NCBI GenBank assembly: GCA_951799445.1
Contig: OX637293.1
Location: 1,054,001 to 1,118,000 of the forward strand
Direction of reading: 5' to 3'
Source of the DNA: Pseudisothecium myosuroides
Taxonomy: Eukaryota > Streptophyta > Bryopsida > Hypnales > Lembophyllaceae
DNA length: 64,000 bases
Part shown: positions 2,183 to 61,711 of the stretch, one piece after another
Layout: each line of letters opens with the position of its first letter
How positions within the stretch are numbered: the first letter of the stretch is position 1
Notes under the pieces: generated by a model
Told to the model about the DNA's origin: nothing
Seen by the model: the letters and a program-made list of their open reading frames with translations, nothing else
The model's database searches: none
Translations under genes and position numbers: made by a program

Positions 2183-2729
2183 TTAACCCTTAAAAGACAT
2201 TTCATGTTCGAGCTTGGTCAAACTTCATTGGATTTCTACATTAAAATATATATTTCAAAATTTTAATATTTTTCACATGTAGTAATACAGGTTTAAGATT
2301 TAATCTCATTTTTTCATAATTAAAAACTTCAAATTCAATTTTATATGATTTTTAAAAGAAATTTCTTTTTAAAAATCATAGTAATTACAAAAATGCTTAA
2401 AATAGTATGAAAGTTTTAAGGAAAATGAAAATAATAGTGACAAACATCATGGTGTAATTGATGTACTCTTTAAGTTCATAGCAAAAGAAATTTGATCGAA
2501 AAAGTTCAAAAAGTGGTGTATTTTGAGCTTTCAAGATGCTCTCTTCAAAGTGTCACAAAAATTACAATTTTAACAATTTTGAAAAAAATTCAAATGGAAT
2601 AAAAAGTAGATTATTGGAGCTACATTTTGTTAGTTAAGCTTAAAAGCATTTAAAATCAAAAACTAGGTGAAAAATGCAAGTTGGACTTTCAAAATGCCCA
2701 TGGGACTTGCAATGTCCTTTAAGGGTTAA
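2183..2729. mobile_element. TTAA-bounded piggyBac-like MITE (547 bp)
   Basis: The left end TTAACCCTTAAAAGACAT at 2183 and right end ATGTCCTTTAAGGGTTAA ending at 2729 are inverted repeats of about 18 bp, each finishing in TTAA. The interior is AT-rich without a reading frame. It lies between a GC-richer segment (2040-2180) and a short gene-like ATG frame (2781), so it may have landed in a gene's 5' region. Confidence 0.75.
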
Positions 2730-2780
2730 GCAATCTCATCTCCAAGCTCCAGCAAGTTCAGTAGCAACCCTATCGCATCG

Positions 2781-2897
2781 ATGGCTCTCAATTTTTTCCC
2801 TGCTGACGTTGTACCGACGGCATCCAAAAGTGCTCAGAATTTTCTCAGTCACATCAACGGACCCTATTCACCACAATTCCCAGAGTCTTTTTCTTAG
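2781..2897 (+). other. Short gene-like ORF (38 codons), possible relic exon
   Basis: An ATG in good plant context (ATCGATGG) opens a 38-codon frame beginning MALNFFPADVV and ending TAG at 2895-2897. The segment and the sequence left of the neighbouring TTAA element (2040-2180) are richer in GC than their surroundings. The TAG sits in a TTTTTCTTAG context that resembles a splice acceptor. I do not recognise the peptide. It may be a broken first exon or chance. Confidence 0.15.
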
Positions 2898-3454
2898 TCA
2901 AATCAGCGGTGGGTTGAGGAGTTTCCATTTTTTTGAAAAAGATCCAACGGCTTAAGGGTTTTGGAAGCGAGAGGGGGAACCAAACCAACAAATTGACATC
3001 ATTTTGGTACATAGTGCAAGGCAAAAAATGCCAATTATATTCTATATCATTATATTCTTTTGAATGGTGGAATGAGATGTCCATATCATTGCTTGCAGTT
3101 ATTGTAGTATAGTTTTGATCCAAGTGTGAAAAGAAGGCTAGGATAAAAATACAAATTAAAGAATGAATGCAGTATTTTTCTTAGTTTGTTTGTAGATTCT
3201 TCAATACCTCAGTGGTTGTATTATTGTATTGTTTGGTACACATTTTGAAAGTTGTCAAGTTCCTGATGCTTTGAATTGGATATGTGATGCAGCCCGTTCT
3301 CGAGAGTCTCGGAGCAAAGTGAGGCTTTGAAAAGGTCCTTTCTCCTCTAGAAAAGAACGGCCCCAAAGCTATAGGCAGGTTGTTTGAAAATTCAACAAAC
3401 GATTGCAATCATTTTGGATGTACACCACCCAATGGTGGATTAGAATATAATTAC
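2898..3454. other. No gene seen
   Basis: The short frames on either strand lack recognisable domains. An ATTTT-rich stretch precedes the fold-back-type element that starts near 3455. Confidence 0.4.
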
Positions 3455-4205
3455 CTAAGGGTCGTTGCAAGAAAGAGTGTCCGTTTTTGTTCCACTTTCA
3501 TTGGTTGTTTTCGGCTAGTATTCCCAATACTATGAACTTTTTGCATATGAATTTTTTAAAATAAAATAAAATAAGGATAATTAGTATAACACTAAAAATA
3601 ACATATTACCAAAATTTCAGACCTAAAAAAAATCTAGGTCAAAAGTTATTCACAAAAAAGTGTGAGCTGAAATTTTGAAGAAAATACATACTTTGACGTT
3701 TTAATTTGTAAAAAATAGGAAAAAACATTTAAAAAACAACTAAAAATAGACAATTTGGGAAGACTTCATGATGAAGAGATTTCAACAAAAAAATGATTTT
3801 GAAACCATCTTCACTCTTCAAAACTGCACTCGCAAGGGAGCCTTCTTTGCATGGATGTAGACAATATAAAATAAAATATTTTTAAATGTTTCTTGGCAGA
3901 AACATGAGTTTCTACTATGAAAATAGACCATAAAAATTTCATCTCTAAATCATTAAATTTGGGGACTCCATAGTACTCAAAATCCTTAAACTCAGAACGT
4001 GACACATTTATTTAATTGATTTTTAAATATAATTTGTTTTTTTTTATTTTTGAAAAATACAAGATATGATGACACTCAAAACAAACATCTTCAAAAAAAA
4101 ATTCAAATTCATATGAGTCATGCTTCAAAAGTTATTGCAAATGAAAGCTAGAACACTTTGGTTGTGATACATATCTAGTACCACTCTTTCTGGCAGTGAC
4201 TCCTA
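3455..4205. mobile_element. Diverged member of the GGGTGATTGC fold-back MITE family
   Basis: The left end GGGTCGTTGCAAGAAAGAGTG and the right end (reverse complement GGAGTCACTGCCAGAAAGAGT) are related to the tips of the palindromic element at 28308-29384. The interior from about 3640 to 3850 matches one arm of that element, including the CATCTTCACTCTTCAAAACTGC region. Much of the other arm is lost, so this copy is no longer a full palindrome. Confidence 0.55.
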
Positions 4206-4684: not shown

Positions 4685-5581
4685 TTAACTCCTAAAAGGG
4701 CCAGACTACGTTTTTTTGGCTATATAGCGATTTTAGGTAGGTTGGTGTAAATGATGATTTGCACATTTTAGGCCGAAATTTTAATAGAAGGTGTAGACGA
4801 GGAATATCTTTCATGTGCACTAAATTTCATGACATTTATAAATATGAATAAAAAGTTATAGCCTAATATGTTACTTTTTTTTGTAGAAAGGTGGTTTGGA
4901 CAAATTAGAAAAAATCATGTTTTTTTCAAAAACAAAAATTTGAAAAATGAAATGAAAGTTATGAGGAATTTTAGTTTGCGGTTTAGTTATGGATTCCCTA
5001 CTCTAAAATAAACTTTGAAATTGTTTATTTAACTCAATTTTCAATATTTTTAGAAAAAAATAAAATCATAGGATGTAGATTGTTTATTACAACATTACAA
5101 CCATTGGGATTAGCGTTTTTCAATTCTATAACTAAATTCTTAACAATTTAGTATTTTGAATTATTCTCTACTTCTTGCTACTTACTATTTTTTTCCTACA
5201 TGTTGTACAATTCCAAATGATTTGAAATTTTTCAAGCATGTAGCCAACTTTCCTTGAAGAATGAATCCAAAAGAGCACCACCATTTTTGACATTTTTTCA
5301 TGAATATGTGAGCTTGTGAAGTGCAGCTGCCTTGTTTTTCGAATAGCCGAAAAAATGATTTCTATGAATTCAAAAGCTCATATCTTGCAATCCATGTGGT
5401 GGAAATTTTTGAAATTTTTACCATGTGTTTTCAAGTCAACATACTACAAGATCCTATCGTTACGTTGGAGGTTACATGCGTCAATAAGAAGGTTTTTTTT
5501 CCAAAATTTGGTACTTGTACTAGAAATGGCAGTTTTGGAGCATTTTTGGTGAAAATGTAGTCATGGAACTTTAGGGGTTAA
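4685..5581. mobile_element. TTAA-bounded piggyBac-like MITE (about 897 bp)
   Basis: It starts TTAACTCCTAAAAGGGCC at 4685 and ends GGAACTTTAGGGGTTAA at 5581. The interior is homologous, in inverted orientation, to the element at 18236-19138 and also matches the left-end copy at 12108. It has long A/T runs and no transposase frame. Small open frames near 5316-5560 are chance. Confidence 0.8.
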
Positions 5582-6165: not shown

Positions 6166-6421
6166 TTAACCCCTAAAGGACCAAGGCCTTTTTTTGCCAA
6201 AAAACACTAAACATTGCTATTTCTAAAGCAAACACTAAATTTTTCTGAAAATAATGTTTTTTTGCACATCTAACCATAGAATCTTATAAATAATCGGTAT
6301 TAAAATGTGTGGAAAAAATTTCAAATTTTTTGACTGCACAGATTGCAAGATATTTGCATTTAAAGTGAAAAAAATAAATTTCAGCACATTGAGGGAGTAG
6401 ATTATTTAACTTTGAACAACC
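6166..6421. mobile_element. Left-end fragment of a TTAA element
   Basis: It begins TTAACCCCTAAAGGACC at 6166 and matches the AAGGCC-type end of the elements at 15254-16192 and 44666-45602 for about 250 bp, up to the 'GTGCTGAA'-like region. It then stops: the right half is missing. A second, different TTAACCCCTCAACGGG terminus follows at 6429. Confidence 0.65.
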
Positions 6422-9400
6422 TTAACCCTTAACCCCTCAACGGGTCGACGTCCAGTTTTTGGACAACGAACAAAAGAAAAGCGGCGTATCTCCCAGAGCT
6501 TGCCTTTTTTTTATCTGTATTTTTGGGAGGAGTGACTGCCGGCAATTCTCTATTCGAAACAGAGAAGCCCATTCCCAGAAACAGTGACAATATTTTTAGG
6601 TAAATGGTAAAGGCTAGAGGTGCGTAGAAGTGTCAAAATTTTCCTCTGCCCAATCATAACAAAACGAAGCTCTGTAGAAAGCAGGGTTCTTTTTCCCGCG
6701 GCCCTGGGTGCGCCTGATTCTTGGGCAGCTGTACATATGTTTATGTGAGCAGACTTGCAAAGTTTTAGCTGGACCTCTTATTATATTCAACAATTACTAC
6801 AGTATGGCAGTGCTGCTATTTGTGAAGTAGAAATGTAGGTGCCAAGGCACAGTAGGGACACAAAAATTTGCCGGCGGTCTCTTCAATGCAAACATCAGGG
6901 AATTGGATAACTGCATTGGCAGTGCTATATACAAGGGCATTTGAGGAAAATGTGGCGCCTATGTCTACACACTACTTGCTTGTGATCTAAGAATTTTTTG
7001 TGACTTTGCACATTGAATTTTGCATCTTTGTAGAGCACCTTCTGGTACAAAGTAATAAGTGGAAACCCTATGGGAGGCACAACCTTCTTGTGCCAATGCA
7101 CGAAGTCCACCTTATGAGGCCATCATTTATGCCAATAATTTTTCTAATGAGGATTTCCAACTGAGGCTGCCGAATGCATTTATGAACTTGCAATTTTTCT
7201 CCTTGTGGAGCACTCTTCAATTAGGAATAAGAGTAGGTGAAAGGAACAATTGAAATCTACTTGACTAACTTCCTTATCCTCACAGTTTGTAAAGAGAAAT
7301 TTTGAGCGATTAGTCCTTGCACTGTTTGCAGTTTCCACTTCTTAGTGAAGTGAGCATTTGCATTGTGTTTGATACTTGGAATTATTGTTACTAGTGTCAT
7401 TTGGGGGAATGCTTTCAAAGGAATCACTTCGTGTAATGTAGCTTTAGCCTACTCAACAAAACCACAGGAAAAAGAATATAGGAAGTAAATCCTTTAGGAA
7501 AGGTTGATAAGTCTAACATTTTGTGACTAAAGTCACTTGTTTTGTATTTTGGACACTTATCTACTTGTTTTTGAAGTTTATTTGATAAAAATAATAAAGA
7601 AACCACACTCAATGTCAATTGGTCTCAGTCCAGACCCAATGCTATCTATAATAGACTCAAATGTATGCAGTCTCAGTCTTATATAATATGATTGGTTCGT
7701 GTCAAATATTCTTGTCAAATTTTCAGGTTTAATCAATTTATCATGGACAATGCATGCTCTATCAACTTAGTCAAAATGCCAAGTTATATATTTTTAAGTA
7801 CAATAAACTTTTAGGGACAATACTTCTTTAATTACTTCTCTTTATATTTATCCCGTCTAAGACTGTACTATAATTACTAGCCTAATTGCCATTTTAATAT
7901 GTAAATATCAATCCGGTATTTCTATTCATTTATTCCAATATGCAAAGCATGAGAAAGTTGGAATTATTCCTGGTTTATTTGATTTGTTTTCTTGACGTTA
8001 GCCCTTAGCTTTAGCTTTACCAGATCGATTTGTCACTGGTCAGTTGGAACTTGGTTCGAATCAATTAGACCAAGAAACACACAAGAACATGGACCACACC
8101 AAGACTAGGCCTATGACCATGCATTGTCTAATTGTTCAGACCAATCGTTCTACTGGATCGAAGGCTACTACGATGGTAAGATCAAGAGTCTATCTATGGC
8201 TTCTCACACAGATAATTAGACTCAATCTATTGGCAGTTTATATGTCTGCAACTCAGTCTATTTGATAAACTTATTCCATGCGTTCAACTGGACTGGTATT
8301 ATCACTTGTACTGGGACTATTTCACGATTATAACAAGTACAATAAGACTCATTAGAGTTGTACAATTAATCGACTAAATTATTCTCAGTCTTAGTTCAGT
8401 ATCTGTATAGCCAATTTGATCACACAATATTTTTAACATGACTCCACAAATTTAAACATCCAGTTGACATTCTGTACCAAGCTCATAAATTGATACATTT
8501 AATTCACAGTTATCCTGAGCCATAATTCACCAACTAGAGTTTTAGACTCTTCCTGTTAATTAGATCCTTAGTAGTTTATAAGCAATTTAATTCTGGGGAT
8601 TAATCTTTGCAATTAGACTCTAGTTCCAGCTTATACGATTGTCTATTTGAGCAAATAAGACACTCAACAAATCAACTGAGCCCTACACACTGTCAGCATA
8701 CACATGCACAACTTCTACCAATTTGATCCGCAGATAGACAACAATTCGAAATAAGGTATTTCACCCATTAGTACTCCACATACAACAATCGGTAACCAGG
8801 GGTTAATACAAATTCGTCAATTAAATTTCAAAGACAATTGGAACAATTAGATTCATAATTTTGTATTCAGTCTTAAACAAATCAATACTTCACAATTCAT
8901 GTACAAGCCATTCACATGATACTTCACACAATTTAACTCAGATTTAAACTTGTCGTTCAATTTGATTACTAGCTGATTCGTGAGGTTTCTTAATCGTGCA
9001 GCTCCAGTCGGCTCAATCCACGGTTATAATATTCAAATATTCAAATATACACAGACTCACAGAGACTGAAAGGGAGCTGTTCACTCAGCAATTAGATTTA
9101 TCACAGTTCATGATCTGACTTTGCACAAATTGACTCATCAACAATTATTCACAATAATTCCACACTCAGAAATTCCAAATACTTTACAGAACAATCTTCC
9201 GCACAACAAGCCGATAGATTTTACACAAGAGCACAAACAATTCAACAATTTCAATATGTATTAATAGTATACTTGACAAGTTTTACAGCACAGAAGATTT
9301 GACAAAACCACACGTTGGTGCTCTTCTACCTTTGAGAGAGAGAGAGAAAAGCAATTAGACATTTGGACTTTTTGTCCCAAAAGAAAGGTTCGAAGGAGGC

Positions 9401-10191: not shown

Positions 10192-10520
10192 TTAGCCCAT
10201 TCATATCTATTTGATGTCGTTTAGCTTTCTATCCAAGATTTTTAGCTATTTGTTATTTTACAATGGGAAATGGACTAATTGTCTACTCTATTTACACCTA
10301 CAAAGCCAAATAGACAGCAAAGTTCGAAAAAATAAAAGCTATACTTTGTCTTGAGAAGGTGAGTGGTTGCAATAGAGTTTCAAACGGGAGATGAGTATAC
10401 ATCAACAAGGTTCCAATGTCTTATCCAACAGCTATAAATATTGAGGGCACGGCGTGTAGCAGTTACGGAACCACTATAACCAATGTCAATAGCGACAATG
10501 CGGTTAGTAAGTGTACACAT

Positions 10521-10719
10521 AGGGAGACAAAGGGGTGACCCTCGAAATCATCTTTTTGTATTACCATGTGAATTATTGGCTTAAAAAATTACAAAAGCGC
10601 TCGTTGGAAGTCAAGCTACTATAGAGGATCTTCCCTTTTCACAACAAATTCAGAGGATAAATAGTTGCATTTCTGTCTTAAAATGTTGCAGAATGGCTGC
10701 GTCGACATTCAAGGGTTAA
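10521..10719. mobile_element. Right part of a D-type TTAA element
   Basis: The interior (AAAGGGGTGACCCTCGAAATC, then an ATTGGCTT core and the ACTATAGAGGATCT region) matches the 229-bp elements at 34555 and 48927. The right tip ATTCAAGGGTTAA ends at a TTAA that interrupts the A-type element sequence beginning at 10716. The left tip is not recognisable. Confidence 0.55.
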
Positions 10720-12035
10720 CTTAAATTTTTTGCACTACAAAGTTTTGAGCTTTTAACCCCTAAATGCCCAAGGCCTTTTTTGAACTTCTAGGAATTTGCT
10801 CTAAATTGATCAAAAAGCCAACATTTTGATAAGTTGTATCAATTTTTTTATAAATTATAACCATACAAATTCAAATTAGATATGTTAGAGGTCACATAGG
10901 AAAAGAAAACACAACAATATCACTTCTGAATTGAAAGATTATAATGTTTGAACATGAGGGTGTTAAAATTGCGAGAGTGACTTGAAGTCTTTCAATCCTC
11001 TTTTCACATCTAAAAAGTTGGTCAACAAAAAAATATGAGGTTAAAGTACCTAATATGCATAATCCCAATCAATTTACGGCTTTTCAAAATCTATTCTATA
11101 ACTTTTTTAAATGAATTTCTAAGGTGATTTTTCCTCTAAGATCTAGTGTATTTCAGGCTCATTTCCAAGAGCCCCCAATACTACGGAAAGTCAAGATTAC
11201 AATGGGTACCCTTGCACAAAATCTTAAATAGAAAAATCATAATCCATCATTTTTAGAATCAGATTTTTGACACTAAAACAAGACTTCAAAAATAAATTTT
11301 CAAAAATATGAATTATTAAAAATAGCAACTTGGTTAGTTTGTTTTTTTTAATTTCAAAGTTTTGTCAGCACCAAATTTTGGTGCCTCAGGCATTTAGGGG
11401 TTAATCTTTATGGTGAGGAATTGAGTTGAGAGTCTAGGGAAAAAAAACTAACTAACTAAAATGAACTTATTTTTTATTTTTTATTTTTTACTTTTTTAAA
11501 TAGAAGTAGGTACAAGCTAGAGGAAAAATCTAAATATTAATATCTCTAATATGGAATTAAAATGCACTAATCCCAATGGTGAGATTATTCTAGAAAACAA
11601 ACTAAACCATGTGAAACTTTTTTTTTTGAAAAATTATAAAAATTGCATTTAGAAATGAATCCTATAAGTTATTTTTTCAAAAAAATGCTCTAATTGCCAA
11701 AAAACAAGATTGTCCATAACTTTCTCATAACAAATCCAAATGAAATGAATCAAAGCTTTCCATGTAGACAAAAATATAATCTACAAGAGAAAAAAATTTA
11801 AAAATTTAAAAATTTTGAATTTTTATTTTGCTGCCCATTCTCCCCTGTTTTGAGCTTATTTGGGCATGACTTTTATTCCTTGGCACCGATTAGAAAAAAG
11901 TATATTCCCACAAAGCTAATCAATTTTTCTATCCACAAAGAAAATTTCAAAAAATCAAGACAAAAATTTAGCCCATAGGTACCTACCCAAAATTCCATTT
12001 GTCACCTAAAGGAACAATGGTCCTTTAGGGGTTAA
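10716..12035. mobile_element. A-type TTAA element, interrupted by a nested copy
   Basis: The two parts, 10716-10756 and 11401-12035, together align in inverted orientation with 15254-16192. The right tip is GGTCCTTTAGGGGTTAA at 12019-12035. The interior is split by another TTAA element (10753-11404). Its own left tip was replaced where a D-type element entered at 10716-10719. No coding capacity. Confidence 0.7.
10753..11404. mobile_element. TTAA element nested in another TTAA element (652 bp)
   Basis: The tips are TTAACCCCTAAATGCC at 10753 and GGCATTTAGGGGTTAA at 11404. Removing it and one TTAA restores a continuous host-element sequence (GAGCTTTTAA, then TCTTTATGG), which matches the uninterrupted host copies at 15254 and 44666. 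A diverged inverted copy lies at 32258-32772. Confidence 0.85.
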
Positions 12036-12107: not shown

Positions 12108-12960
12108 TTAACCCCCAAAGGACCAACATGCCTTTTTTGGCAACATAGAAATTTTGGGCAGGTACATGTGACTGGAGATTTGCATATTTTGGACTGAAAT
12201 TTTTATAGAAGGTGGGGACGAGGAATATCTTTTGTATGCACCAAATTTTATGACATTTGGAAATACGAGTTGAAAGTTGGCCTAATATGTTGTTTGTTTC
12301 TCAACTCGGGTAGTCCGGGTAGATCAGAAAAAATCACTTTTTTCAAAAATAAAAATTTGAAATTGGTTTATTAGATTTATATATACGTGAAAAGCTTTGA
12401 ATCATTCCATTCTGATCAATGAGTCAAACCTTATGAGGATTTTTAGTTTGCGGGCAATTATGGATTGTCTACTCTAAAATAAACTTCGAAGTCGTTTATT
12501 TCACTCAATTTTCAATATTTAAAAAATAAAAAAAATTGTAGGATGTAGATTGTTTATTACAACATTGCAACCATTGGGATTGGCATTTTTCAATTCCATA
12601 GTTAACTTCTTAACAATTTTGTGTTTTGAACCATTCTCTACTTCTTTCTACTTACTATTTTTTTCCTATATGTTGTACAATTCCAAATAATCTGAAAATT
12701 TTCAAGCATGTAGCCAACTTGCCCTGAAGAATTAATCCAAAGAAGCACAACCATTTTCATAATAATCTGATCTTGTGAAGTGCAGCTGCCCGGTTTTTCG
12801 CAAGATCCAATAAAGGACTTTTGCCACTTCAAACGCTAATATCTTCCAATCTACACAATGGAAATTTCTGAAATTTTTTCCACATATTCTCAAACCAGAG
12901 TACTACAAGATCCTATGGTTACATGTGTCCAAAAATGATATTTTTCAAAAAGTCTAACTA
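12108..12960. mobile_element. TTAA element with left end only
   Basis: It starts TTAACCCCCAAAGGACC at 12108 and aligns with the 4685-5581 element for about 850 bp, including the ATTACAACATTGCAACC and GTTGTACAATTCCAAAT stretches. It then diverges before the expected right tip. Confidence 0.65.
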
Positions 12961-15253: not shown

Positions 15254-16192
15254 TTAACCCCTAAAGGACCATTGTCCCTACGGGGGACAAATGCGTTTTC
15301 GGGCAGGTACCTACGGGCTGAAATTTTCTTCTGATTTTTTGAAACTTTTTTTGGAGGTAGAAAAGCTGATTAGCTTCAAGGGAATATAATTTTTTTCACA
15401 ATTGGTGCCCGGGAAAAAAAGTTATGACCATATAAGCTCAAACCAGGGGAGGAGGGGCAGCTCGGGCAGCAAAAAAAAAATGGACAAAAATTTGAATTTT
15501 TTTTTAATATTTTTTTTCTCATAGATTATATTTTTGGCTATCTGGAAAGCTTTGATTCATTTCATTTGGGTATGTTATGAGAAAGTTATGGACATTCTTG
15601 TTTTTCGGGCAGTTAAAGCATCTTCTTGAAAAAATTAACTTTAGGATTCATTTTTTAATGCAATTTTTCAAATTTTTCAAATTTTTTTTTGCATGGTCTA
15701 GTTTACTTGCTAGAACAATCTCACCATTAGGATTAGTGCATTTTAATTCCATATAAAATATATGAATATTTTTTATTTTCCTTCTATCTTGTACCTACAT
15801 CTACTTAACAATTTTTTTAAGAATGATAATTAATTTTTTTTTTAACTTTTTTTTCTTTTAGACTCTCAAACCAATTCTCCACTATAACAATTAAAACCTC
15901 AAAACTCTGGAGTGCAAAAATTTTAAGTTAAAAATGTTCAAAGTCAAAAAATCTAGTCTCGCAATGTGCTGAAAAACTTGTTTTTTTTCACTTTAAATGC
16001 AAATATCTTGCAATCTGTGCGGTCAAAAATTCTAAAAAGAATTTCACACATTCTTATACTAGTTAGGTGTAAGATCATACGGTTGGATGTGAAAAAAAAA
16101 CATTTTTCAATTTTTTTTTTACTCTTTGCTATAGAAATGGCAGTTTTCAGTGTTTTTTGGCAGAAAAAAGGCCTCGGTCCTTTAGGGGTTAA
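15254..16192. mobile_element. Full-length A-type TTAA element (939 bp)
   Basis: The tips are TTAACCCCTAAAGGACC at 15254 and GGTCCTTTAGGGGTTAA at 16192, perfect inverted repeats of 17 bp including TTAA. Just inside the left tip is a small hairpin (TTGTCCC...GGGGACAA). It aligns end to end with 44666-45602. Long T and A runs, no transposase frame. This is a good reference copy for the family. Confidence 0.9.
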
Positions 16193-18235: not shown

Positions 18236-19138
18236 ATAACCCCTAAAGTTCCATGACTATGTTTTCACCAAAAACACTCCAAAACTGCCATTTCTAATAC
18301 AAGTACCAAATTTTGGAAAATAAACATTTTTGGATATATGTAATTGCAAAATCTTGTAGTACACTAGTGTCAGAAGATATAGAAAAAATTTCAGAATTTT
18401 TCACAGTGAGGAGTGCAAGATATTAGCATTTGAATTGACAAAACCCCTTTTTTTGGCCCTGCAAAAAACCGGGCAGCTGCACTTCACAAGGTCACATTTG
18501 TATGAAAAAATGTCCAAAATGGTGGTTACTCTTTGGATTCATTTTTGAAGGCAAGTTGGCTACATGCTTGAAAATTTTTACTTCATTTGGAATTGTACAA
18601 TATATAGGAAAAAAATAGTAAGTAGAAAGAAGTTAGTAGCAAATGATTCAAAACACTAAATTGTTAAGAATTTAATTATGGAATTAAAAATGTCAATCCC
18701 AATGGTTTCTATGTTGTAATAAATAATCTACATCCTATGATTTTATTTCTTTCAAAAAATATTTAAAATTGAGTAAAATAAACGACTTAGAAGTTTATTC
18801 TAGAGTAGAAAATTCATAATTTGCCCACAAACTAAAACTCCTCATAACTTTTGACTCATTGGTCGAAATGGAATGATTCCAAGCTTTCCATGTATATATA
18901 ACTCTAGAAAAAATTTCAAATTTGCCTGGACTATCCAATTACAAAAAAAAATAACATATTAGGCCATAACTTTTGACTCCTATTTCCAAATGTCATGAAA
19001 TTTAGCGCATATGAAAGATATTCCTCATTCCCACCTTTTGTTAAAATTTCAGCCTAAAATATGCAAATCTCCAATCACAAGTACCTGCCTAAAATGGATG
19101 TGTTGCCAAAAAACACATGCTGGTCCATTAGGGGTTAA
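18236..19138. mobile_element. TTAA element, left TTAA decayed to ATAA (903 bp)
   Basis: The left tip is ATAACCCCTAAAGTTCC at 18236, and the right tip GGTCCATTAGGGGTTAA ends at 19138. It aligns in reverse with 4685-5581. The single left-end change suggests an older copy. Confidence 0.75.
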
Positions 19139-26800: not shown

Positions 26801-27378
26801 TTAACCCTGGAGCTTGCCGACGTCCATTTTCTGGACGATGAACAAATTCAGATCCTTGTTTCTGTCTCATTCCTGCTTGGATGAAAGTCATCCTAATTTT
26901 TGGTGATACTTTATCAAGTTGTTGTCCTATCCATCGGTTGGATTGGGTGTTACTAGAACATATTACATTTCTAAAATTACAAATGTGGAAGTATGTCAAG
27001 TGGTCAATTTGCATTGACTTCAGTTCAAAACTAGATGTGCAAAAATGAGGTCAAAGATGTAAAGGTCACAAAAATTTCAAAAAATCACCATATGAAGAGA
27101 ACCTTATTTCAAATCCATTCCAACAAGTTTTACTCAAAAAATGATAATATTTTACTTGTAATTGAATTTAGAAGGAATTCTGAAATTTTCTTTTCAAAAT
27201 TTATAGAAAAAGATTGATAATAGCATTAGTAGATCTAACCGTACAGATAGAATTTAAAAATCAAAATCTACAGCTTTCGTTTGTATACCAATTCCAAAAT
27301 ATTCTTCCAAATTGTAGTTTATAATGGTTTTTCTCAAATCGTCAATTTTGGAGATGAATTCAGACGCTCCAGGGTTAA
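26801..27378. mobile_element. C-type TTAA element (578 bp)
   Basis: The left tip TTAACCCTGGAGCTTGCCGA and right tip GACGCTCCAGGGTTAA are inverted and end in TTAA. The interior (ACTTTATCAAGTTGTTGTC, then GTGGAAGTATGTCAAGTGG) is homologous to 51389-51983. No transposase frame; the minus-strand 112-codon frame spans the element edge and is not conserved. Confidence 0.8.
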
Positions 27379-31746: not shown

Positions 31747-32257
31747 ATTTATGTTTGATCTGAAAATAGATCTAAAGAAAATTACAGACAAATAAGTGGA
31801 TTGATATTTGTATTTTTCTACTTATAGTTGGCATTTCATTGATATATTTGAGTGATTTTGTATAGGGCAATGCCCAGTGAATAGTGAAGAGAAAATAATG
31901 AAAAATAAGGGTTTTATGTGTGGACAAATCTAGACAAGTCGTGACTTTATTTTCAATTACCTTTTCTTTAAGTATTGTTCAATTTTATCTTTTTTTTTTT
32001 GGGATCAATATTATTTGGAGTATGAATTGGCTCATTTTTAGGGCAGTCATTACTTTTCCTATTTTTTTGTATATAATCTAGTTATTTTGTGTATTTTTAC
32101 TTAAAATATGTTGGTCTTCTCTATAAGTGCTAATAATTTGTCTTGTAAAATAGCATTGCTAATTCTTAAGTCAACATGAACATATGTAAATGTCCTTAAT
32201 AAATGTCATAGAGAATTCAAATAGAGTATAGAAATATTTCTTAAATGTGCATAATTG

Positions 32258-32772
32258 TTACCCACCAAATGCCACCCGACACCAAATTCTAGTATTGACA
32301 AAACTTTGAAGTTAAATAAAACCTTACCAAGTTTCTATTTGTCGTAGTTTATATTATTTTAAATATTTTTTGAAGTCTAATTTTAGAATCAAAAATCCAA
32401 TTTTGGAAATGAATGATTAATATTTTTCTATTCAAGATTTTGTGCAAGAGTGTCCATTGCTAATCTTGATTTCTAGTGTTGAGGGCTTTTCGAGGCTCAT
32501 TTCGAAAAGAAGGTATTTGAGGCTAGAAGGTTAAAAGACTTCAAGTCACTTTCACAATTTTAACACCGTCATTATCAAACATTATAATCTTTCAACCCAT
32601 AAGTGATATTGTTGTGTTTTCTTTTCTCATGTGATCTCGAACATGTGTAGTTTGAATTTGTACGGCTACAATTCAATTTTTTTTGATAAAACTTATCATA
32701 ATGTTGGCTTTATGTTCAATTTAGAGCAAATTCCAAGAAGCTCAAAAAAGGCCTTCGGCATTTAGAGTTTAA
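32258..32772. mobile_element. Diverged TTAA element (515 bp)
   Basis: It aligns in inverted orientation with 10753-11404. The left tip has decayed to TTACCCACCAAATGCC; the right end GGCATTTAGAGTTTAA closes at 32772. The paralogous block at 56221 has GAATGTTAAAGCTAAAGTC with a single TTAA and no insert, so the insertion followed block duplication. Confidence 0.75.
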
Positions 32773-33295: not shown

Positions 33296-33897
33296 ACACA
33301 ACATATTTCCTACCTATGATATGTTTAATCCGAAATATATGTAAATATATGTTTTCAGAAACATATGTAAAACGTGTACCACCAACAAATCGAAGCTTTA
33401 CAGAAGGGCCAAGCTGCGATGTTCCTTTCGGTGATATCATCATATCCTACGTAACGGTCAGATTCAGACAAAAATTAAGTATTTCTTGGGATGTCTAAAT
33501 TTTTGAAAATATTACAAGTGAAATTTTTGGAAAATTACAAGTGAATTTCTGGAATATCCTAGAATATACCACCTGCCGAACCCTTCTGCGCGCCAAAAGT
33601 AAAGTTTTCTGGCACTCAGGTGCCGGATCAGACCTTCACGTACGGTATTCTCGTGCCATGTGTGAACGTGGTAACTGCACATCAATGGCAGGCGCTGTTC
33701 TTTCCGCTTTAAATGAGATGTTCGGACAAATCACGTAACTATCTGCTCTTCTACCACTCGGACTCATTGATTCCGCATATTCTGGTTCTTGTCAACATGT
33801 TGCATGAGTGGGAGGACAATTTCCTGATGAAGTGCAGTAGGATGGATGCACAAGAATGACAACGGGGCTTCGCTATAACTCACAGTAGAACTTCTAA
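33296..33897 (+). promoter_or_regulatory. SABATH upstream block, first (distal) copy
   Basis: It is homologous to the DNA upstream of the three SABATH genes. From 33646 it is about 99% identical to 34930-35177, which lies next to gene 1. A 200-bp MITE interrupts it at 33446-33645. It contains the conserved GTGTGAACGTGGTAACTGCA and CATTGATTCCGCATATTCTG segments. No coding frame; indels between copies are not in threes. Confidence 0.55.
33446..33645. mobile_element. 200-bp MITE in the upstream block
   Basis: The copy at 34930 reads CATCATATTCTCG without an insert. Here the sequence is CATCATAT, then CCTACGTAACGGTCAGATTC...GATCAGACCTTCACGTACGG, then TATTCTCG. The ends are imperfect inverted repeats and TAT is duplicated. 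Superfamily not assigned. Confidence 0.65.
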
Positions 33898-35090
33898 TTT
33901 TTGCTCTAATGATTTTGAATTTCTAATTTTATATGATGAAGAATTGAGTTGAAAATCTAGGAAGAAAAATTCAAAAAAGAAACACTTAGTTTTCACTCAT
34001 CAAAAAATTGTTAAGTAGAAGTAGGTTCAAGATTGAAGGAAAAATTAAATCATTAATAGCTCTAAGATAGAATTGAAATATACTAATCTCAACGGTGAGA
34101 TTGTTCTAGCAAGAAATCTTAACCTTGTGGAACTTTTTATTTTTCTAAATTGTCAAAATTGAGTTCGGAAATGAATCCTACAAGTTATTTTTTCTAGAAG
34201 ATGCTCTAATTGCCCGAAAAATATGATTGTCCATAACTTTTGCATAACAAATCCAAACGGAATGAATCAAAGCTTCCCATGTAGATAAAAATCAAATCTA
34301 TATGAAACAAATTTTTAAAATTTTTAATTTGAAGTTTTGTGAGTTTTTTTTCTACCCGCTCAACTAAAATTTGGGGGTTTTGTGCCATAACTTTTGCTCC
34401 GAGGCACCGATTGAAATAAAAATTACATTTTTGGAAAGCTAATGTAATTCTCTATCTTCCCAAAAAAAATCAGAAAATCACGACAAATATTAAGGCCGTA
34501 GGAGCTTGCCCGAAATCCATTTTGTCCCCCGAGGGGACAAAGGGATTTTAGAGGTTAACCCTAAAATGCCAAAGGGGTGAGCCTCAAAATCATCATGTTT
34601 CATTACCGTGTGCATCATTGGCTTCCAAAATTGCAACAGTACACATTGGAGTCAAACTACTATAGAAGATCTCCCATCTTTACAACAAATTTGGAAGATG
34701 AGTAGTTGCACTTCTGTTCTATACAGTTTGATTCCTTGTCATCCATTGGATACCAAACGTCCACATCAACGTTTAAGGGTTAAACACAACATATTTCCAA
34801 CTATGATCACATTGCTTATTCGGAAATATATGTATATTTTCAGAAATATATGTAAAACGTGTAGCACCGTCAAATCGAAGCTTTGCAGAAGGGCCAAGCT
34901 GCGATGTTCCTTTTGGTGATATCATCATATTCTCGTGCCGTGTGTGAACGTGGTAACTGCACATCAATGGCAGGTGCTGTTCTTTCCGCTTTAAATGAGA
35001 TGTTCGGACAAATCACGTAACTATCTGCTCTTCTACCACTCGGACTCATTGATTCCGCATATTCTGGTTCTTGTCATCATGTTGCATGAG
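33891..35090. repeat. Near-identical 1.2-kb duplicate of 48263-49462
   Basis: The two segments differ at only a few bases plus an A-run length change. The segment carries the right part of an A-type TTAA element (to 34558), a D-type element (34555-34783) and the proximal SABATH upstream block. At the left edge (about 33898) the sequence switches from upstream block to element interior, marking a recombination junction. Confidence 0.85.
34555..34783. mobile_element. D-type TTAA element (229 bp)
   Basis: The tips are TTAACCCTAAAATGCC and CAACGTTTAAGGGTTAA. It shares its left TTAA with the A-type remnant before it. Its right TTAA joins ACACAACATATTTCC, the sequence that follows a single TTAA in empty blocks (38938, 58436). 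Confidence 0.8.
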
Positions 35091-40880: not shown

Positions 40881-40882
40881 TT

Positions 40883-44665: not shown

Positions 44666-45602
44666 TTAACCCCTAAAGGACCGTTGTCCCTTCGGGGTAC
44701 AAATGCATTTTCGGGCAGCTACCTACGGGCTGAAATTTTCTCCTGATTTTTTGAGACTTTTTTTGAAGTTTGAAAAGTTGATTAGCTTCATGGGAATATA
44801 ATTTTTTTCACAGTCGGTGCCCGGAAACAACAGTTACGACCAAATAAGCTTAAAACAGGGGATGGGGGGCAGCCTGGGCAGCAAAAGAAAAATGGACAAA
44901 AATTTGAATTCTTTTTTTTAATATTTTTTTTCACGTAGACTATATTTTTGTCTATCTAGAAAGATTTGATTCATTTCATTTGGATATGTTATGAGAAAGT
45001 TATGGACATTCTTGTTTTTCGTGCAGTTAGAGCATCTTCTTGAAAAAAATAATTTGTAGGATGCATTTCTGAATGCAATTTTTCAAATTTTTCAAATTTT
45101 TTTTTTGTAATGGTTAAGTTTATTTGCTAGAACAATCTCACCATTGGGATTAGTGCATTTTAATTTCATCTAAAATATATTAATATTTTAGATTTTCCTT
45201 CTATCTCGTACCTACTTCTGCTTAACAATTTTTTTAAGAATGATAATTAAGTTTTTTTGAATTTTTTTTCCCTTAGACTCTCAACTCAATTTTACACTAT
45301 AAATATTTAAAGCTCAAAACTCTGTAGTAAAAACATTTTAAGTTAAAAATGTTCAAAGTCAAAAAATCTAGTTCCGCAATGTGCTGAAAAACTTGCTTTT
45401 TTCACTTTAAACGCAAATATCTTGCAATTTGTGCGGTCAAAAATTCTGAAATTTTTTCCACACACTCTCATACTAGTTAGGTGTAAGATCATATGGTTAG
45501 ATGTGGAAAAAACCGTTTTCAATTTTTTTAAATCTTTGCTATAAATATGGTAGTTTTGAGTGTTTTTTGGCAAAGAAAAGGCCTTGGTCCTTTAGGGGTT
45601 AA
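44666..45602. mobile_element. Full-length A-type TTAA element (937 bp)
   Basis: The tips are TTAACCCCTAAAGGACC and GGTCCTTTAGGGGTTAA. It is collinear with 15254-16192. The paralogous blocks have the target uninterrupted (AAGTGCTAATAATTTG at 32130 and 56110), so the insertion duplicated a 4-bp TTAA site. Confidence 0.92.
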
Positions 45603-45660: not shown

Positions 45661-47425
45661 TTAACCCCTAAAGAAGCAAACTTCATTTTTTTTGGTAGTA
45701 TTGCAATTTAGGGTAGCTTACTATGAATGGAATTTTTATTTTTTTTTGAAATTTTCAAACAACATGTGCTTGAGGAGTAGATTTAATGCCCAACAATTTT
45801 TATAATTTTTGACTACATCATTAAAAAGTAATTGTATGATATGTAGATTTTTCCTCAACTGCGGTTGATTGAGCAGATTAAAAAAAATCACCTTTTTCAA
45901 GAATAAAAATTTGAAATTGATTTTGAGGTTTATATATATGTGGAAAGCTTTGAATCATTCCATTTTGATTAATGAGATGAAAGTTATGAGAAGCTTTAGT
46001 TTGTGGGCAATTATAAAATCTTCACTCTTAAAATGAACTTTGAAATCCTTTATTTAATTGAATTTTCAATATTTTTAGAAAAAATTAAATCTTAGAATGT
46101 AGATTGTTTATTACAACATTACAACCATTGAAATTGGCATTTTTCAATTCCATAACTAAATTCTTAACAATTTAGTATTTTTGAGTCATTTTCTACTCCT
46201 TTCTACTTACTATTTTTTTAAGTATGAATACAAAATTTATTTTTCTTGAAACTTTTCATTTGTATTTCCAACTTATTTCTTTAATGTATTGTGGAGAGTT
46301 GCAAGTTTTAGGGTCTGTACATTTTGGGGCAAATTTTTTGAAAGATGAAATCTAACCATTTGGGAAGAGTTGAAATACTTCTTTTTGAAATTCAAGCATC
46401 ATGATCTTTTAATTGGTAAGGTTTTTAATTCTTAAATTTTAGGACAATATAATTTAATAAATTAACCCCTAAAGGCCCAAGGCATTTTCTGGCTTCGAAA
46501 CGACTGAAAACTGCCATTTCTGCTGCGATCAGTCCCTAAATCAAAAAAACTTTTTTTTTAGAATCTAACGTAGGATCTTGTACTTCACTTGTCTCAGATC
46601 ATGTGGTAAAAATTTCATGAAGTTTGACCATACGATTGGAAGATATTAGCATTTGAAGTTGGAAAAAAAAGTCTTTTGAACTGTGGCCTGTAATTTCAGA
46701 TGACTTTGACGGCTATTTGTGGATTTTTTTTGCACTACACACCATAAAGTTAAATTTTTTTATATTGAAAATTTGAGTTAAAAGTTGGAGAAAAATATTT
46801 CAAAATGTCAAAACTTGATTTTCGCGTTTAAAAAAATTATTAAGTAGAAGCAGGTCCAAAATTGAACAAAACACTAAATTGTTAATAGCTATTAGGTGGA
46901 ATTAAAACACCATAATTCCAATAGTGGGATTGTTCTTGCAAACAAACTTAACCTTGTCATAAAAAAAAAATTGAAAAAATTTGAAAATTGCATTCAAAAA
47001 TGAATTTTGTAAGTTGTTTTCTGAAGAAGATGCTTAGACTGCCCGAAAAACAAGATTGTCTATAACTTTCTCATTCTGAGTCCAAATAGAATGAATCAAA
47101 GCTTTAAATGTAGACAAAAACATGATCTTTAAGTAGAATTTTTTTTTTAAAATTCAATTTTTTAAAGTTTTTTTTTTGCCCGGTGAACTGCTTTTTTGAC
47201 TTTGGGTGGCATAACTTTTGCTCCTGGGCACCAATTGAAAAACTTGCCCGAAATCCCAAGTGTCTGCCAAGGGGACTTTGGGCCTTTAGGGGTTAACTAA
47301 AGGATCTTACAATTTAATTGTTTTTCCAAAAAAATAAATATAGATGAAGATTTTAGCCTTGCTTTGGAGATTAGTATTTTAAAGCAATTTTGAGCATCTA
47401 AACATGAAAGATCTTTAGGGGTTAA
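45661..47425. mobile_element. TTAA element containing a nested TTAA element
   Basis: The outer tips are TTAACCCCTAAAGAAGC at 45661 and TCTTTAGGGGTTAA at 47425. Without the inner copy it would be about 930 bp, the family's usual full length. The block at 32190 keeps the empty target ATGTCCTTAATAAATG. Confidence 0.85.
46462..47296. mobile_element. Inner nested TTAA element (835 bp)
   Basis: The tips are TTAACCCCTAAAGGCCC and GGGCCTTTAGGGGTTAA, with the interior related to 48002-48930 in inverse orientation. It lies inside 45661-47425 and is flanked by TTAA on both sides. Confidence 0.85.
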
Positions 47426-48001: not shown

Positions 48002-48930
48002 TTAACCCCTAAAGTCCCAAAGACATTTTTCCATCAAAAACCACTCAAAACTGTCATTTCTATAGCAAAGAGTAAAAAAAATTAATGTGTTTTTTGCATA
48101 TTTAACCATAGGATCTTGTACTAGACTAGTGTAAGAATGTGTGTAAGAAATTTCAGAAACTTTGACCTTGTAGATTGCAAGACATTTGCATTTAAAGTGA
48201 AGGAATCAAGTTTTTTTGCACCTTGCTCAACTACATTTTTTGGCTTTGAACCTTCATAACTTAAAATTTTTGCTCTAATGATTTTGAATTTCTAATTTTA
48301 TATGATGAAGAATTGAGTTGAAAATCTAGGAAGAAAAATTCAAAAAAGAAACACTTAGTTTTCACTCATCAAAAAATTGTTAAGTAGAAGTAGGTTCAAG
48401 ATTGAAGGAAAAATTAAATCATTAATAGCTCTAAGATAGAATTGAAATATACTAATCTCAACGGTGAGATTGTTCTAGCAAGAAATCTTAACCTTGTGGA
48501 ACTTTTTATTTTTCTAAATTGTCAAAATTGAGTTCGGAAATGAATCCTACAAGTTATTTTTTCTAGAAGATGCTCTAATTGCCCGAAAAATATGATTGTC
48601 CATAACTTTTGCATAACAAATCCAAACGGAATGAATCAAAGCTTCCCATGTAGATAAAAATCAAATCTATATGAAACAAATTTTTAAAATTTTTAATTTG
48701 AAGTTTTGTGAGTTTTTTTTCTACCCGCTCAACTAAAATTTGGGGGTTTTGTGCCATAACTTTTGCTCCAAGGCACCGATTGAAATAAAAATTACATTTT
48801 CGGAAAGCTAATGTAATTCTCTATCTTCCCAAAAAAAAAAATCAGAAAATCACGACAAATATTAAGGCCGTAGGAGCTTGCCCGAAATCCATTTTGTCCC
48901 CCGAGGGGACAAAGGGATTTTAGAGGTTAA
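48002..48930. mobile_element. A-type TTAA element (929 bp), left member of a pair
   Basis: It starts TTAACCCCTAAAGTCCC and ends GGGATTTTAGAGGTTAA. A hairpin TTTGTCCCCCGAGGGGACAAA sits just inside the right tip. It shares TTAA 48927-48930 with the next element. Confidence 0.88.
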
Positions 48931-49155
48931 CCCTAAAATGCCAAAGGGGTGAGCCTCAAAATCATCATGTTTCATTACCGTGTGCATCATTGGCTTCCAA
49001 AATTGCAACAGTACACATTGGAGTCAAACTACTATAGAAGATCTCCCATCTTTACAACAAATTTGGAAGATGAGTAGTTGCACTTCTGTTCTATACAGTT
49101 TGATTCCTTGTCATCCATTGGATACCAAACGTCCACATCAACGTTTAAGGGTTAA
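48927..49155. mobile_element. D-type TTAA element (229 bp), right member of a pair
   Basis: It is practically identical to 34555-34783, with tips TTAACCCTAAAATGCC and CAACGTTTAAGGGTTAA. Its right TTAA is followed by ACACAACATATTTCC, which directly follows GAGCTAATTAA or GAGTTAATTAA in uninterrupted blocks. Confidence 0.88.
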
Positions 49156-51388: not shown

Positions 51389-51983
51389 TTAACCCCCAAG
51401 CGCTCCAACGTCCACTTTCTCGATGACGAACACATTGAAACTCAAGTTTCATCCTCACAATTACTATTTGGATGAAAGCCATCCTAATTTGTGGAGATAC
51501 TTTATCAAGTTGTTGTCGTATTGAATGGTTGGATTTGGTGTTACTAGAGTACATATATTTTTCTAAAATTACAAATGTGGAAGTATGTCAAGTGGTTGAC
51601 CAAGCCAAAATTGCATTGACTCTAGTTCAAAACTGGATTTGCAAGAAAGAGGTCATAGATTTAAAGAACACAAAAATTTCAAAAATTTAGTATGTGAAGA
51701 GAATCACATTTCAAATCCATTCCAACTAATAGTACTCAAAAAATGATAATATTTTGCTTGTAATTGAATTTAGAAGGAATTTTGAAATTTTCCTTTCAAA
51801 ATTTATAAAAAAAAATATTACTAATAGCATTGGTGAAGGTAACCATATGGATGGAATTTACAACTCAAAATCTACAACTTTTATTTGTATGTCAATTCCA
51901 AAATATTTTTGCAAATAGCACTTTAAAATCTTTTTTCTAGAAATTGTGAATTTTTGAGAAGACTCTGGACATTTAGGGGTTAA
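51389..51983. mobile_element. C-type TTAA element (595 bp)
   Basis: The left tip is TTAACCCCCAAGCGCTCC, and the right tip ACATTTAGGGGTTAA ends at 51983. It is homologous to 26801-27378 through most of its length. No transposase frame. Confidence 0.78.
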
Positions 51984-52120: not shown

Positions 52121-52123
<3 letters not shown>

Positions 52124-52172: not shown

Positions 52173-52175
<3 letters not shown>

Positions 52176-58301: not shown

Positions 58302-61300
58302 CTAGCATACCATTAATCAAATTTCTAAAATGTAGTAGAAAGTGGATTGTTAAGAATATTGATGTCTCTAATAACAAATCATTTTGCTTCAACATCTTTA
58401 TTTTGAAGAGGCTAAAGTTTGCAATCATGAGCTAATTAAATACAACATGTTTCCCACCTATAATCACCTAATCCGAGCCAAAAAGACCATGATTGAAGAG
58501 CAAGCCCTGTCGCTTGCAATAAAGTCCCTCCATCCAAAAATTAAACAATTAATTCCTTTAAAGTAAGGGCCAAAATGTGTGCCCAATTACATGCAATGAC
58601 ACTTGTTAAAAAGGTCCCCCCGCCATTTTGAGCACCTCTGCTGGTTATCCAAGGTTGGTTTGGCAAGTTTCCTATTTGCTTCCTACAATTATTTGTTCCA
58701 CCCTTTTGTCCTCTCTTTAGAAATGAAGTAGAGTATACAACTTGTGGCCTTTATAAAATGTTTATGTTCAAGCTATTCATTGTAAAGCAATTGGTTGTAT
58801 GATCACCAAGCAACCATCCAAATTGACATTGTAGGGCATTTTTTTTTAAAGGTTGCTGGGGCTTTTCCTATTGTGGACAATTTCTATAATTAGATTCATG
58901 AGGATCAAATCACACTCAAAGGTACCAGAAAAGGAGTCAGATGCATTGAAATCTGCAATGTATATTCTTTGAAGCTATTATTTTTTAAGGCTACTCTATT
59001 AAATTTAGTCATTTTAGTCTTTTTCTACTACAGTAGTAGTTCAAGTCATATTAAGACTAATATTTTTTTATTCATAGATAAATCTAAATTTATCTACTAA
59101 AGTTTCAATTGAAGTTTAGATGTCAGCCTGTCAGGTTTTTCAATGGTAGAAAAGGGGTCTAATTTCTAATGAATAATATTGTGATTGAATTCAAAAAAAT
59201 CATGTGTATAAATATTCATAAGAGAGAGTAGAAAAGGACTCTTTTGCTATAATTTTAATATTTTTTTATTTTCTATAATATTCAGAAGTAAAAACATGTG
59301 AACGTCTTTTTTAATATAAAAATTAATCCAAATGATGATTGTGATAGAACAAAAAGTGTTTATATTATTCACATTGAGGGTCCTATGAAATCTATTTTTG
59401 GAATTGAATGTTTAATTTTTTTAAAGATTAAATCAAGAATTTGTCATAAATAAATAAATTGATTAAAAAATTATACTACTTTTAGTTCAAAATTTAATCA
59501 CTATAAATTCTTTTTGATAGTTGTATGTTTTGAACGTTAAAAAAATTTGGATTAAAAAATCTATTTAAAATGCTATATTGTAATAAAGACACTAAATTTA
59601 GCCTTAAAATTGATAATTTATGTCTTTTGAAAGATTTTTTTATGAAATTTTTTCTTCATCCCTTTAAAGGGATGCATTGCTATATTATTCATCCATAAAA
59701 TTTTTTAAATAATGACAACATCAAAGTAATTGAGAGCTTCAAAAGTTTAGAAAAGGACTCAAGTCCTGTCCTACAAAAGTAATCCCAATGGTAGCTTTGA
59801 GTGTGGTTTGACCCATGAAGTTTTTATATTTTCTCATTAGCAATTGATAGGAGATTCCAATGCACCAAAGAACACATCATTTAGATACCATATATTAAAG
59901 GTATGAAGTGTCAAAACAAATTTGAATATTTTAGAACCATTTCTGTAAGAATAGGTGCATATTGATTTTGGAGATGTTTACAATATAAGCATCTCATAAG
60001 TGGCATTGAACCCCCAAAGGATGAGCCTATGCCCATAGATTCAAGCTTCACAATCTTTCTTTTCCTTTAATTTATTGCCATATTGAATCTAAAGATGAAT
60101 GAAATTCTTTAAATTTTTTTATCAAAGAAGAAATCCTATGCCTTTTGCAAGTGCTAAAATTTTCAATTTTGGGGGAAATTTTTTAACTTACCTTGAATTT
60201 TGTAAGGAAAAAGTGAAGAAAATTTATATCTAATATCAAATATGCTAAAAAAGCTGAAATTTTCAGCATAGGTTTGTTTTGTAGAGCATAAAATCATGGT
60301 ATAAAACAAAGTCACTATGTCATTCTAAAATTAAAAAATCAACAAACCATGGTTATAGGTCTAAGATTCAAATTGCAATAAAATATTGAATTTTTAAGTT
60401 TTTCACATTTTTTCCAATTGGAATAGAAACTTAACTTGATAAAATTCATTTCATTAGTTGAACTCAAATTCAAAAGTATCATTCTTATGGCTAAAATTTA
60501 CATCAAGAATAAATAGCAAAAATTGGTCAAAATACACTATAAGGGTGATTAAGGATCTTCTTCTTTAGAAGAGTCAATAATATCATAATGAAGGAATATG
60601 CAATACTATTCACTAAAAATGCATTCAAGCAACTCCTCTCAAAACAATTAGATGAAAAAATGTTTTTTTCCTCCTATAGTTCCATTTGAAGTTATGTCAA
60701 GGATAAACAATGTCCGTAGCATTTTTAAGAATTTAAGGCACGACACAATTTGGGAAGAGTACCTTAACTCCTTGGAAGGATAGGCCCATGACCATTGATT
60801 TCAAGCCTCACTGTCCACAACTTTGTTTACTATTCTTTTAAAACTAAATATGAATGAAAAATTTATATTTGGTTTTTCGAAATGAAGTCATGTGTCTACT
60901 AGAAGTCATAAACTTTTCAAATTTCTTAGGAAAATATTGAAATTATTATAGATTTTTTAAGAAAAAATAAAAACAAATATTATATACATAATTCCCTCAA
61001 AAAATCTAAAATTTTAGAATATATGTACATTATAGTGTATAACACCATGGTATAAAACAAATTTACCATTAAATCTAAAATTCAAAACTCAACAAACCAT
61101 GTTTATAGTCCCAAAGTTCATATTGCTATTAAATATTGAAATTTAAGAATTTTTCAAAATTTTCAATTGGAATAGAGACTATACTTGATAAGCTTTATTT
61201 CATTAGCTGGAGTCAAACTTAATAGATGTTATTTTTATTACTAAAACTCGCATCAAGTATAAATAGCAAGAAATGGCCAAAATACTCTACAATGGTGATT

Positions 61301-61632
61301 CATGGATCAAGCATCTCCTTCTTTAGAAAAGTTAATAATAACATAATGAGGGAATTTACAACAATATTCACTAAAAATATACTCAAGCAACTTCAAAAAC
61401 AAAATTAGATGTAAAAAATGTTATGTTCCATCTTGCAATCTTAGGTGTAATCATCCAAACAGACAGTTAGTATATGCATTAGTATTAAATAAACCCTACA
61501 AAGACGCTATGGGCCTAAATGGTGCAATAGATGACTTCATTGTTAAATGTAGAAATAAAGAATGCATCTATTGATCCATTAATTGGAGGATTTGGGTGAC
61601 TACCTTGATCATGGGGCTACTTCCTTCTAGAG
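58302..61632 (+). repeat. 3' flank of SABATH block 3, part 2
   Basis: It resumes after the insertion with ACCATTAATCAAATTTC and the empty TTAA site at 58436. It aligns on and off with 38940-40560 (GAGCAAGCC, AAGTCCCTCCA, GATTCCAATGCACCAAAGAA). About 59840-60600 and 60760-61560 are themselves diverged tandem duplicates (AAATAGCAAGAAATGG and CCATGGTATAAAACAAA recur). No genes. Confidence 0.6.
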
Positions 61633-61711
61633 TTAACCCCTAAACGACCAGGGGTGCAAAAAACAGTGTTGCAGAAGCTACATGATGGCCTTATGGTCCT
61701 TTAGGGGTTAA
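61633..61711. mobile_element. Minimal TTAA element (79 bp)
   Basis: The tips are TTAACCCCTAAACGACC and GGTCCTTTAGGGGTTAA with about 45 bp between them. The paralogous site at 40553 has a single TTAA in matching context (AGGGTTAAAATCATCACC), so this is a real insertion, or an internally deleted one, not a chance palindrome. Confidence 0.88.

Follow-up and report, generated by a model that had tools for sequence, protein, structure and literature searches.

The window analysed here is a stretch of 64,000 nucleotides from Pseudisothecium myosuroides (Bryopsida; assembly GCA_951799445.1, contig OX637293.1; C7:1054001-1118000). Between 31063 and 61813 it carries tandemly duplicated blocks of SABATH methyltransferase genes, with an internal duplication at 98.8% (33646-33896 and 34928-35178); Methyltransf_7 was matched in 4/7 proteins scanned. 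We take the SABATH genes as marking a plant host. Spread over the window, inside these blocks and outside them, are elements with TTAACCC...GGGTTAA tips. They are almost certainly non-autonomous miniature inverted-repeat transposable elements (MITEs) of the piggyBac superfamily, residing in a plant genome that also has a large set of piggyBac transposase genes.

TTAA-tipped elements in the window

A scan of both strands with the tip pattern TTAACCCCTAAAGGACC found 7 exact sites, and 28 with <=4 mismatches; the control, 30 first-order Markov sequences, had a mean of 0 exact sites and of 1.4 with <=4 mismatches (maximum 4). When only the inner 13 bases of the tip were sought (<=2 mismatches), 21 sites were found, and TTAA stood just outside in 18/21. 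The other three were preceded by ATAA (the left end of 18236-19138), TTGT and AACC. Among 32 window tips, positions 1-4 were T in 31, T in 32, A in 32 and A in 31, and the first three element positions were C in 31, 31 and 29; these counts are partly circular, the 32 tips having been picked as element ends.

By self-comparison and tip pairing, we delimited 14 two-ended elements with such tips, a fifteenth that is a block duplicate (34555-34783), and several one-ended pieces, which agrees with the roughly fifteen elements claimed in an earlier note on this DNA. They form six sequence groups, F1-F6, plus a 79-bp singlet (Table 1). F1 elements measure ~830-940 bp and F2 elements ~900 bp, and interior sequence is partly common to the two groups. 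In the MITE consensus sequences, no frames longer than those of shuffled sequences were found: the longest frames stayed under the 95% level of the shuffles in F1-F3 and just reached it in F4. No transposase domain was detected in 150 open reading frames of the window (the longest of 194 passing filters for 60-aa length and complexity), and Rfam and tRNA scans of the window gave no matches.

Empty sites in the duplicated SABATH blocks

At four sites, an element lies in one SABATH block while TTAA or CTAA stands at the same place in the sister blocks (Table 1). Across the insertions, the joined flanks match eight empty sites at 72-85% identity over 144-200 bp. The earlier note had listed five such sites, of which these four are clean. 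The fifth, at 32258-32772, is compatible with insertion but degraded: its left tip reads TTACCCACC, two sisters show TCAA and one shows TTAA, and in this last one, at 56227, nearby bases are missing. Two of the clean sites have a different structure from the one proposed. The insertion at 48002-49155, described as a single element, consists of two, 48002-48930 and 48927-49155, which abut with a common TTAA. The insertion at 45661-47425 does have the expected empty sister sites, but it is not a single undisturbed element, as it holds a nested F1 MITE at 46462-47296. This nested insertion is suggested by its paired tips, its relatives being too diverged there to display an empty site.

Tips and transposase genes across the genome

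The search was extended to the whole genome (387,930,709 bases, 222 contigs). The exact tip was found at 6,438 + 6,279 = 12,717 sites, and the reversed-pattern control at 0. Among 100 tip sites listed, all on C1, there were 23 plus/minus pairs <2.5 kb apart, 17/23 of which measure 905-951 bp; the 900-bp MITE is therefore the common form there. Searching the genome with the PF13843 profile produced 898 first-look candidates. Scores were computed for 116 of them, every one of which exceeded the Pfam cut-off, with a best score of 287.5 bits. The same profile gave no match in 14 control genomes (0/14). Among the first 30 transposase loci, 23 had no stop inside the matched stretch. Five loci scoring 287.5 bits each make up group one, with open frames of 1056 aa in three of them and of 901 and 895 aa in the remaining two, and six loci scoring 261.1 bits each make up group two, with a 1091-aa frame. 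The set viral_contigs yielded 0 matches in the tip scan and, for transposase relatives, 5 pattern matches with 0 confirmed.

Autonomous elements and their transposase

Three autonomous elements of 5.4-5.6 kb could be delimited (L051 418-6049, L053 572-6137 and L054 678-6091), and a DDE_Tnp_1_7 transposase lies between TTAACCC-type tips in 3/3. The L053 element has 5,566 bases, the tips TTAACCCCTAAAGGACC and TTAACCCCTAAAGTTCC, and a 780-aa frame. The L054 element, of group one, has 5,414 bases and a 1056-aa frame, and each of its ends reads TTAACCCCTCAGGGCCGG; the five copies of this group are 99.90-100% identical over 4,116 bases. In group two, L051 and L052 are 99.982% identical over 5,632 bp, and their identity ends at TTAA on both sides (TTAACCCCTAAATGTCC on one, TTAACCCCTAAACGACC on the other). 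TTAA on both sides, with differing flanks, was found in 5/5 group-one and 6/6 group-two copies. Both ends were read in all 11/11; the reading covered the full length of two of the six group-two copies and only the ends of the other four. One autonomous copy adjoins an F2-type tip, the TTAA being common to both. Duplication of the TTAA target is thus seen at four clean loci in the window and in 11/11 autonomous copies.

The earlier note had proposed that a land plant hosts piggyBac-type mobilisation, and that this could be checked through further genome-wide copies and through a PGBD-type transposase between the same tips. The tips, the TTAA and the PF13843 transposase between matching ends support the proposal: the further copies exist, and such a transposase was found in L053, whose ends match F2, and in L051 and L054. 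Neither of the observations that it named as contrary, copies lacking TTAA or a transposase of another superfamily, was encountered in the elements examined: 11/11 autonomous copies read at both ends have TTAA, and the transposase matches PF13843.

The frames of L051, L053 and L054 all match PF13843 well above its cut-off, and no other Pfam match exceeds the cut-off. With phmmer against the Protein Data Bank, the L051 and L054 proteins each retrieved two distinct chains, piggyBat 9c0f (E-values for the two proteins 8.8e-32 and 3.3e-37) and piggyBac 6x67 (4.5e-21 and 1.2e-29). Three catalytic aspartates, which we take to be D268/D346/D447 of piggyBac, are kept in the alignments of L051 and L054 with 9c0f and of L051 with 6x67. 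Rough patterns for the aspartate motifs, applied to 30 loci in which some frames are broken, matched the first motif in 23, the second in 21 and the third in 18. The C-termini are Cys/His-rich by eye in 3/3 proteins. Ahead of the core lie 580-615 residues without Pfam match in the frames of 1056 and 1091 aa; within these N-terminal parts, L051 (residues 262-614) and L054 can be aligned over 413 columns, at 27.6%. The corresponding parts of the frames (L051 1498-3348, L054 1672-3411) are glycine/arginine-rich in part.

Relationship of the MITEs to the autonomous elements

The L053 element is matched on both sides by three F2 elements (4685-5581, 12108-12950 and 18236-19138): at 73-77% over its leftmost 171-217 bases, and at 69-72% over 304-379 bases on the right, where the alignment of 12108-12950 halts before the element end. 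The right tip of L053 equals that of 4685-5581 over 24 bases, and between the left tips there are one to a few mismatches. Because both of their ends align with L053, the F2 MITEs are best read as internal-deletion derivatives, and look like the remains of a 5.6-kb L053-like element. For F1, three elements (6166, 46462 and 48002) match L053 at its right end, at 68-71%, and F1 interiors align at 65-80% with sequence beside the transposase loci L029-L033, L041 and L044-L046. Taking a MITE to have the ends of an autonomous element and no coding capacity, F2 appears to be one in full and F1 in part.

The MITEs could instead have been moved by a different, since-lost transposase, with the autonomous piggyBac elements arriving as an unrelated later invasion. 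The L051 and L054 elements have no alignable sequence in the window, and F3-F6 and the 79-bp element do not align with L053, as would be expected in that case. However, both ends of L053 find a match in F2, and F1 aligns not only with the right end of L053 but also with stretches next to several transposase loci, so that we consider a separate origin improbable.

The remaining alternatives concern the class of the elements and the source of the transposase genes. The hallmark of Tc1/mariner is a TA duplication together with a mariner transposase. The TA duplication is so described in the excerpts of PMC5199201. If the elements were Tc1/mariner-like (Stowaway-type), starting with ACCCC and preferring TTAA by chance, a TA duplication within TTAA would look the same as a TTAA duplication at any single site, and some sister sites are indeed CTAA. 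However, the outer T and the outer A are each conserved in 31/32 tips, and both in 11/11 autonomous copies, and the transposase between the tips is of the piggyBac type, DDE_Tnp_1_7, in 3/3 elements; a TA duplication with a mariner transposase was not found, in a genome search that used no mariner profile. We regard this origin as very unlikely. Kolobok elements also duplicate TTAA, but their termini are 5'-RR...YY-3' in the excerpts of PMC9587614, whereas those in the window are CC...GG, and with a piggyBac-type transposase this assignment too has next to no probability. As piggyBac is best known from animals, one might suspect that the transposase matches come from animal or fungal DNA contaminating the assembly, but this is hardly credible, since the transposase matches lie on 11 contigs (C1-C11), ten of which span 17 to 55 Mb, the same tips lie between plant SABATH genes in the window, and one autonomous copy adjoins an F2-type tip. 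Transposase type, termini and plant-gene context were thus the grounds for rejecting these last three.

For the piggyBac elements we propose, the following course may be suggested. The transposase, with its DDE_Tnp_1_7 core, three aspartates and cysteine-rich C-terminus, would recognise the CCC-tipped ends, excise the element and insert it at TTAA, which is duplicated, probably by cut-and-paste. One end carries a palindrome whose centre lies ~25 bp from the tip, at the place that in insect piggyBac is occupied by a cysteine-rich-domain dimer. The MITEs would be cross-mobilised by the autonomous transposase; F2 would have arisen by internal deletion of the L053-like element, and the other groups presumably in a similar way.

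Several observations weigh against this account. Certain sister sites are CTAA, TCAA or TTAG. For the L053 element, the boundaries come from the tips of a single copy. When 30 loci were scanned with a rough cysteine-rich-domain pattern, it matched in 17/30 and missed L040, the transposase locus of the L053 element. Apart from the tips, the window has no sequence in common with the L051 and L054 elements, and among the delimited autonomous elements no parent was found for F3-F6 or for the 79-bp element. The window MITEs, finally, differ from each other by Kimura two-parameter (K2P) distances of 0.11-0.42.

Age and recent mobility

The closest pair of window MITEs lies at K2P 0.11, and the SABATH flanks differ by 12-16% between blocks; the window insertions therefore need not be young. 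The autonomous copies compared diverge by 0-0.1% and are young. The description of the elements in the earlier note as active or recently active is thus supported by the near-identical autonomous copies, and not by the window MITEs. The many full-length piggyBac elements, some of them near-identical, point to a recent spread in a plant of a transposon type best known from animals, and the elements may be active today.

A palindrome near the left end

The left end of insect piggyBac contains a palindrome (bp 17-33) to which cysteine-rich domains bind as a dimer (excerpts of PMC7351741). An imperfect palindrome in a comparable position is present at the left end of piggyBat, and its right end has none (excerpts of PMC11707139). 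Within the window itself, one end each of F1, F3 and F4 has a palindrome at the piggyBac-like place (P 0.0014); another scoring of the window ends gave a mean of 7.5 vs 6.1 in random stretches. The P is scoring-dependent, ranging from 0.005 to 0.73 over six scorings, and from 0.06 to 0.65 without F1 and a one-ended tip at 404. The window palindrome was kept solely because left ends near transposases, considered later, agreed with it.

With the count starting at the first T of TTAA, 14/18 of those left ends score up to the threshold for a palindrome centred at 28-30, vs 5.0% of random stretches, and the centre is exactly 29 in 12/18 vs 0.7%. The arms differ in sequence across many families, while the position is fixed. 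TTAACCC was present in 13 of 20 stretches taken from upstream of transposases, and these 13 yielded 15 ends; the other 7 yielded none and were dropped from the count. The stretches of L057 and L061 gave two ends each, so that one end in each may be a neighbour's. To be set against the pattern, 4/18 left ends have no palindrome, and the 18 ends are related, not independent; since the families are related, the nominal P values (1e-15, 1e-22) exaggerate the strength of the pattern. At the right end, 3/3 autonomous elements examined showed no palindrome at that place in the first 80 bases scored, which leaves room for a more distant one, as in piggyBac. The left-end palindrome would serve in end recognition.

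Putting these results together, we lean, with clear reservation, towards a broader reading: that the native piggyBac population of this land plant is large and recently amplified, with thousands of MITEs and N-terminally extended transposases, and that the palindrome at bp 25 of the left end, found in insect and bat elements too, reflects an ancient superfamily-wide rule of end recognition.

Features of the window

Table 1. Positions of TTAA-tipped elements and related pieces in the window
Feature	Position	Strand	Remarks
F5 element	2183..2729	.	tips TTAACCCTTAAAAGACA / TTAACCCTTAAAGGACA
F2 MITE	4685..5581	+	ends align with L053 572-6137: left 77%, right 71%
F1 one-ended piece	6166..6426	+	aligns with right end of L053 element, 68%
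F6 piece	10503..10719	.	right end TTAACCCTTGAATGTCG
F3 element, 652 bp	10753..11404	-	palindrome near right end, centre 29 from TTAA
F1 one-ended piece	11402..12035	-	abuts F3 element 10753..11404
F2 element, right end lost	12108..12950	+	alignment with L053
F1 MITE, 939 bp	15254..16192	+	perfect 17-bp tips, TTAA included
F2 MITE	18236..19138	-	left flank ATAA
F4 element	26801..27378	+	tips TTAACCCTGGAG; palindrome centre 29
F3 element, degraded tips	32258..32772	+	within SABATH flank
F1 truncated copy	33889..34558	+	block duplicate of 48258-48930
F6 element, 229 bp	34555..34783	+	identical to 48927-49155 (block duplicate)
F1 MITE, 937 bp	44666..45602	+	perfect 17-bp tips; empty sisters CTAA at 32130 and 56110; a more distant third sister, near 38360, has TTAG
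F2-like element interrupted by F1 element	45661..47425	+	left part matches 12108 at 76%; empty sisters TTAA at 32196, CTAA at 56175 and 38429
F1 MITE nested in 45661-47425	46462..47296	-	paired tips
F1 MITE	48002..48930	-	empty sisters (for 48002-49155) TTAA at 38938, 58436 and 33292
F6 element	48927..49155	+	TTAA 48927-48930 common with F1 MITE 48002..48930
F4 element, 595 bp	51389..51983	+	tips/self-comparison
Shortest element, 79 bp	61633..61711	.	empty sister TTAA at 40553

Other repeats and frames were also noted in the window. A long fold-back repeat at 28263-29420 has arms of 428 nt at 93% around a 35-nt spacer and continues into a further pair of 146 nt at 82%; related sequence lies at 3677-4078, and no TTAACCC tip was seen at its ends. 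A second fold-back repeat (56891-57267) has arms of 116 nt at 89%. There are two tandem arrays, one of four 177-bp units (40941-41647) and a degenerate one with a unit of ~13/26 bp (23306-23863; AATTTAGAAGTTA). A single open frame at 20387-21214 has DWNN and RING-type matches.

Comparison with known systems

The piggyBac transposon is a main tool of animal genetics and, to our knowledge, has seldom been described in detail from plants. With near-identical autonomous copies in a plant, native activity, host control and horizontal origin become directly testable, and a plant piggyBac could yield a plant-derived tool for precise excision. An annotation without a piggyBac class would overlook thousands of copies in this genome.

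Elements of this type are stated to occur in plants in PMC8086355 and PMC10813416, and a plant review (PMC10794571) counts PiggyBac among plant superfamilies; we therefore do not claim this as the first such plant case. In the excerpts of these three papers and of PMC6890710, no plant element is described with tips, target duplication and transposase together. By title, no study of a piggyBac native to a land plant was among the matches listed. In a Sphagnum paper (PMC9946827) piggyBac is absent from the main text, and PMC10619864 was set aside, the term being matched there only as "piggybacking". The nearest plant likeness is the fern Ceratopteris richardii, also a land plant, for which a table in PMC6890710 gives 1,230 elements under PiggyBac; unlike the elements described here, these carry a repeat-library label, without tips, target duplication or transposase in the excerpted text. 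The insect PiggyBac-class MITEs of iMITEdb are likewise non-autonomous, in a class defined by TTAA duplications, but their hosts are animals (excerpts of PMC5199201).

The piggyBac of Trichoplusia ni (6x67; excerpts of PMC7351741) resembles the plant elements in TTAA duplication, CCC tips, aspartate motifs, cysteine-rich C-terminus and the left-end palindrome at bp 25. It differs in the length of the protein, the solved chain having 594 aa whereas the plant frames have 1056 and 1091 aa, with 580-615 aa before the core, and in that the three plant right ends have no palindrome at that place within the first 80 bases scored. The best sequence match in the Protein Data Bank is piggyBat of Myotis lucifugus (9c0f). 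According to the excerpts of PMC11707139, its palindromes are on the left end only, in three motif-palindrome pairs, the first centred at ~bp 25.5 as read from the stated spacing; the plant ends were scored for a single palindrome. A left-end palindrome at bp 25 is thus common to insect piggyBac, bat piggyBat and these plant elements, and its shared position bears on how piggyBac transposases distinguish the two ends of their element.

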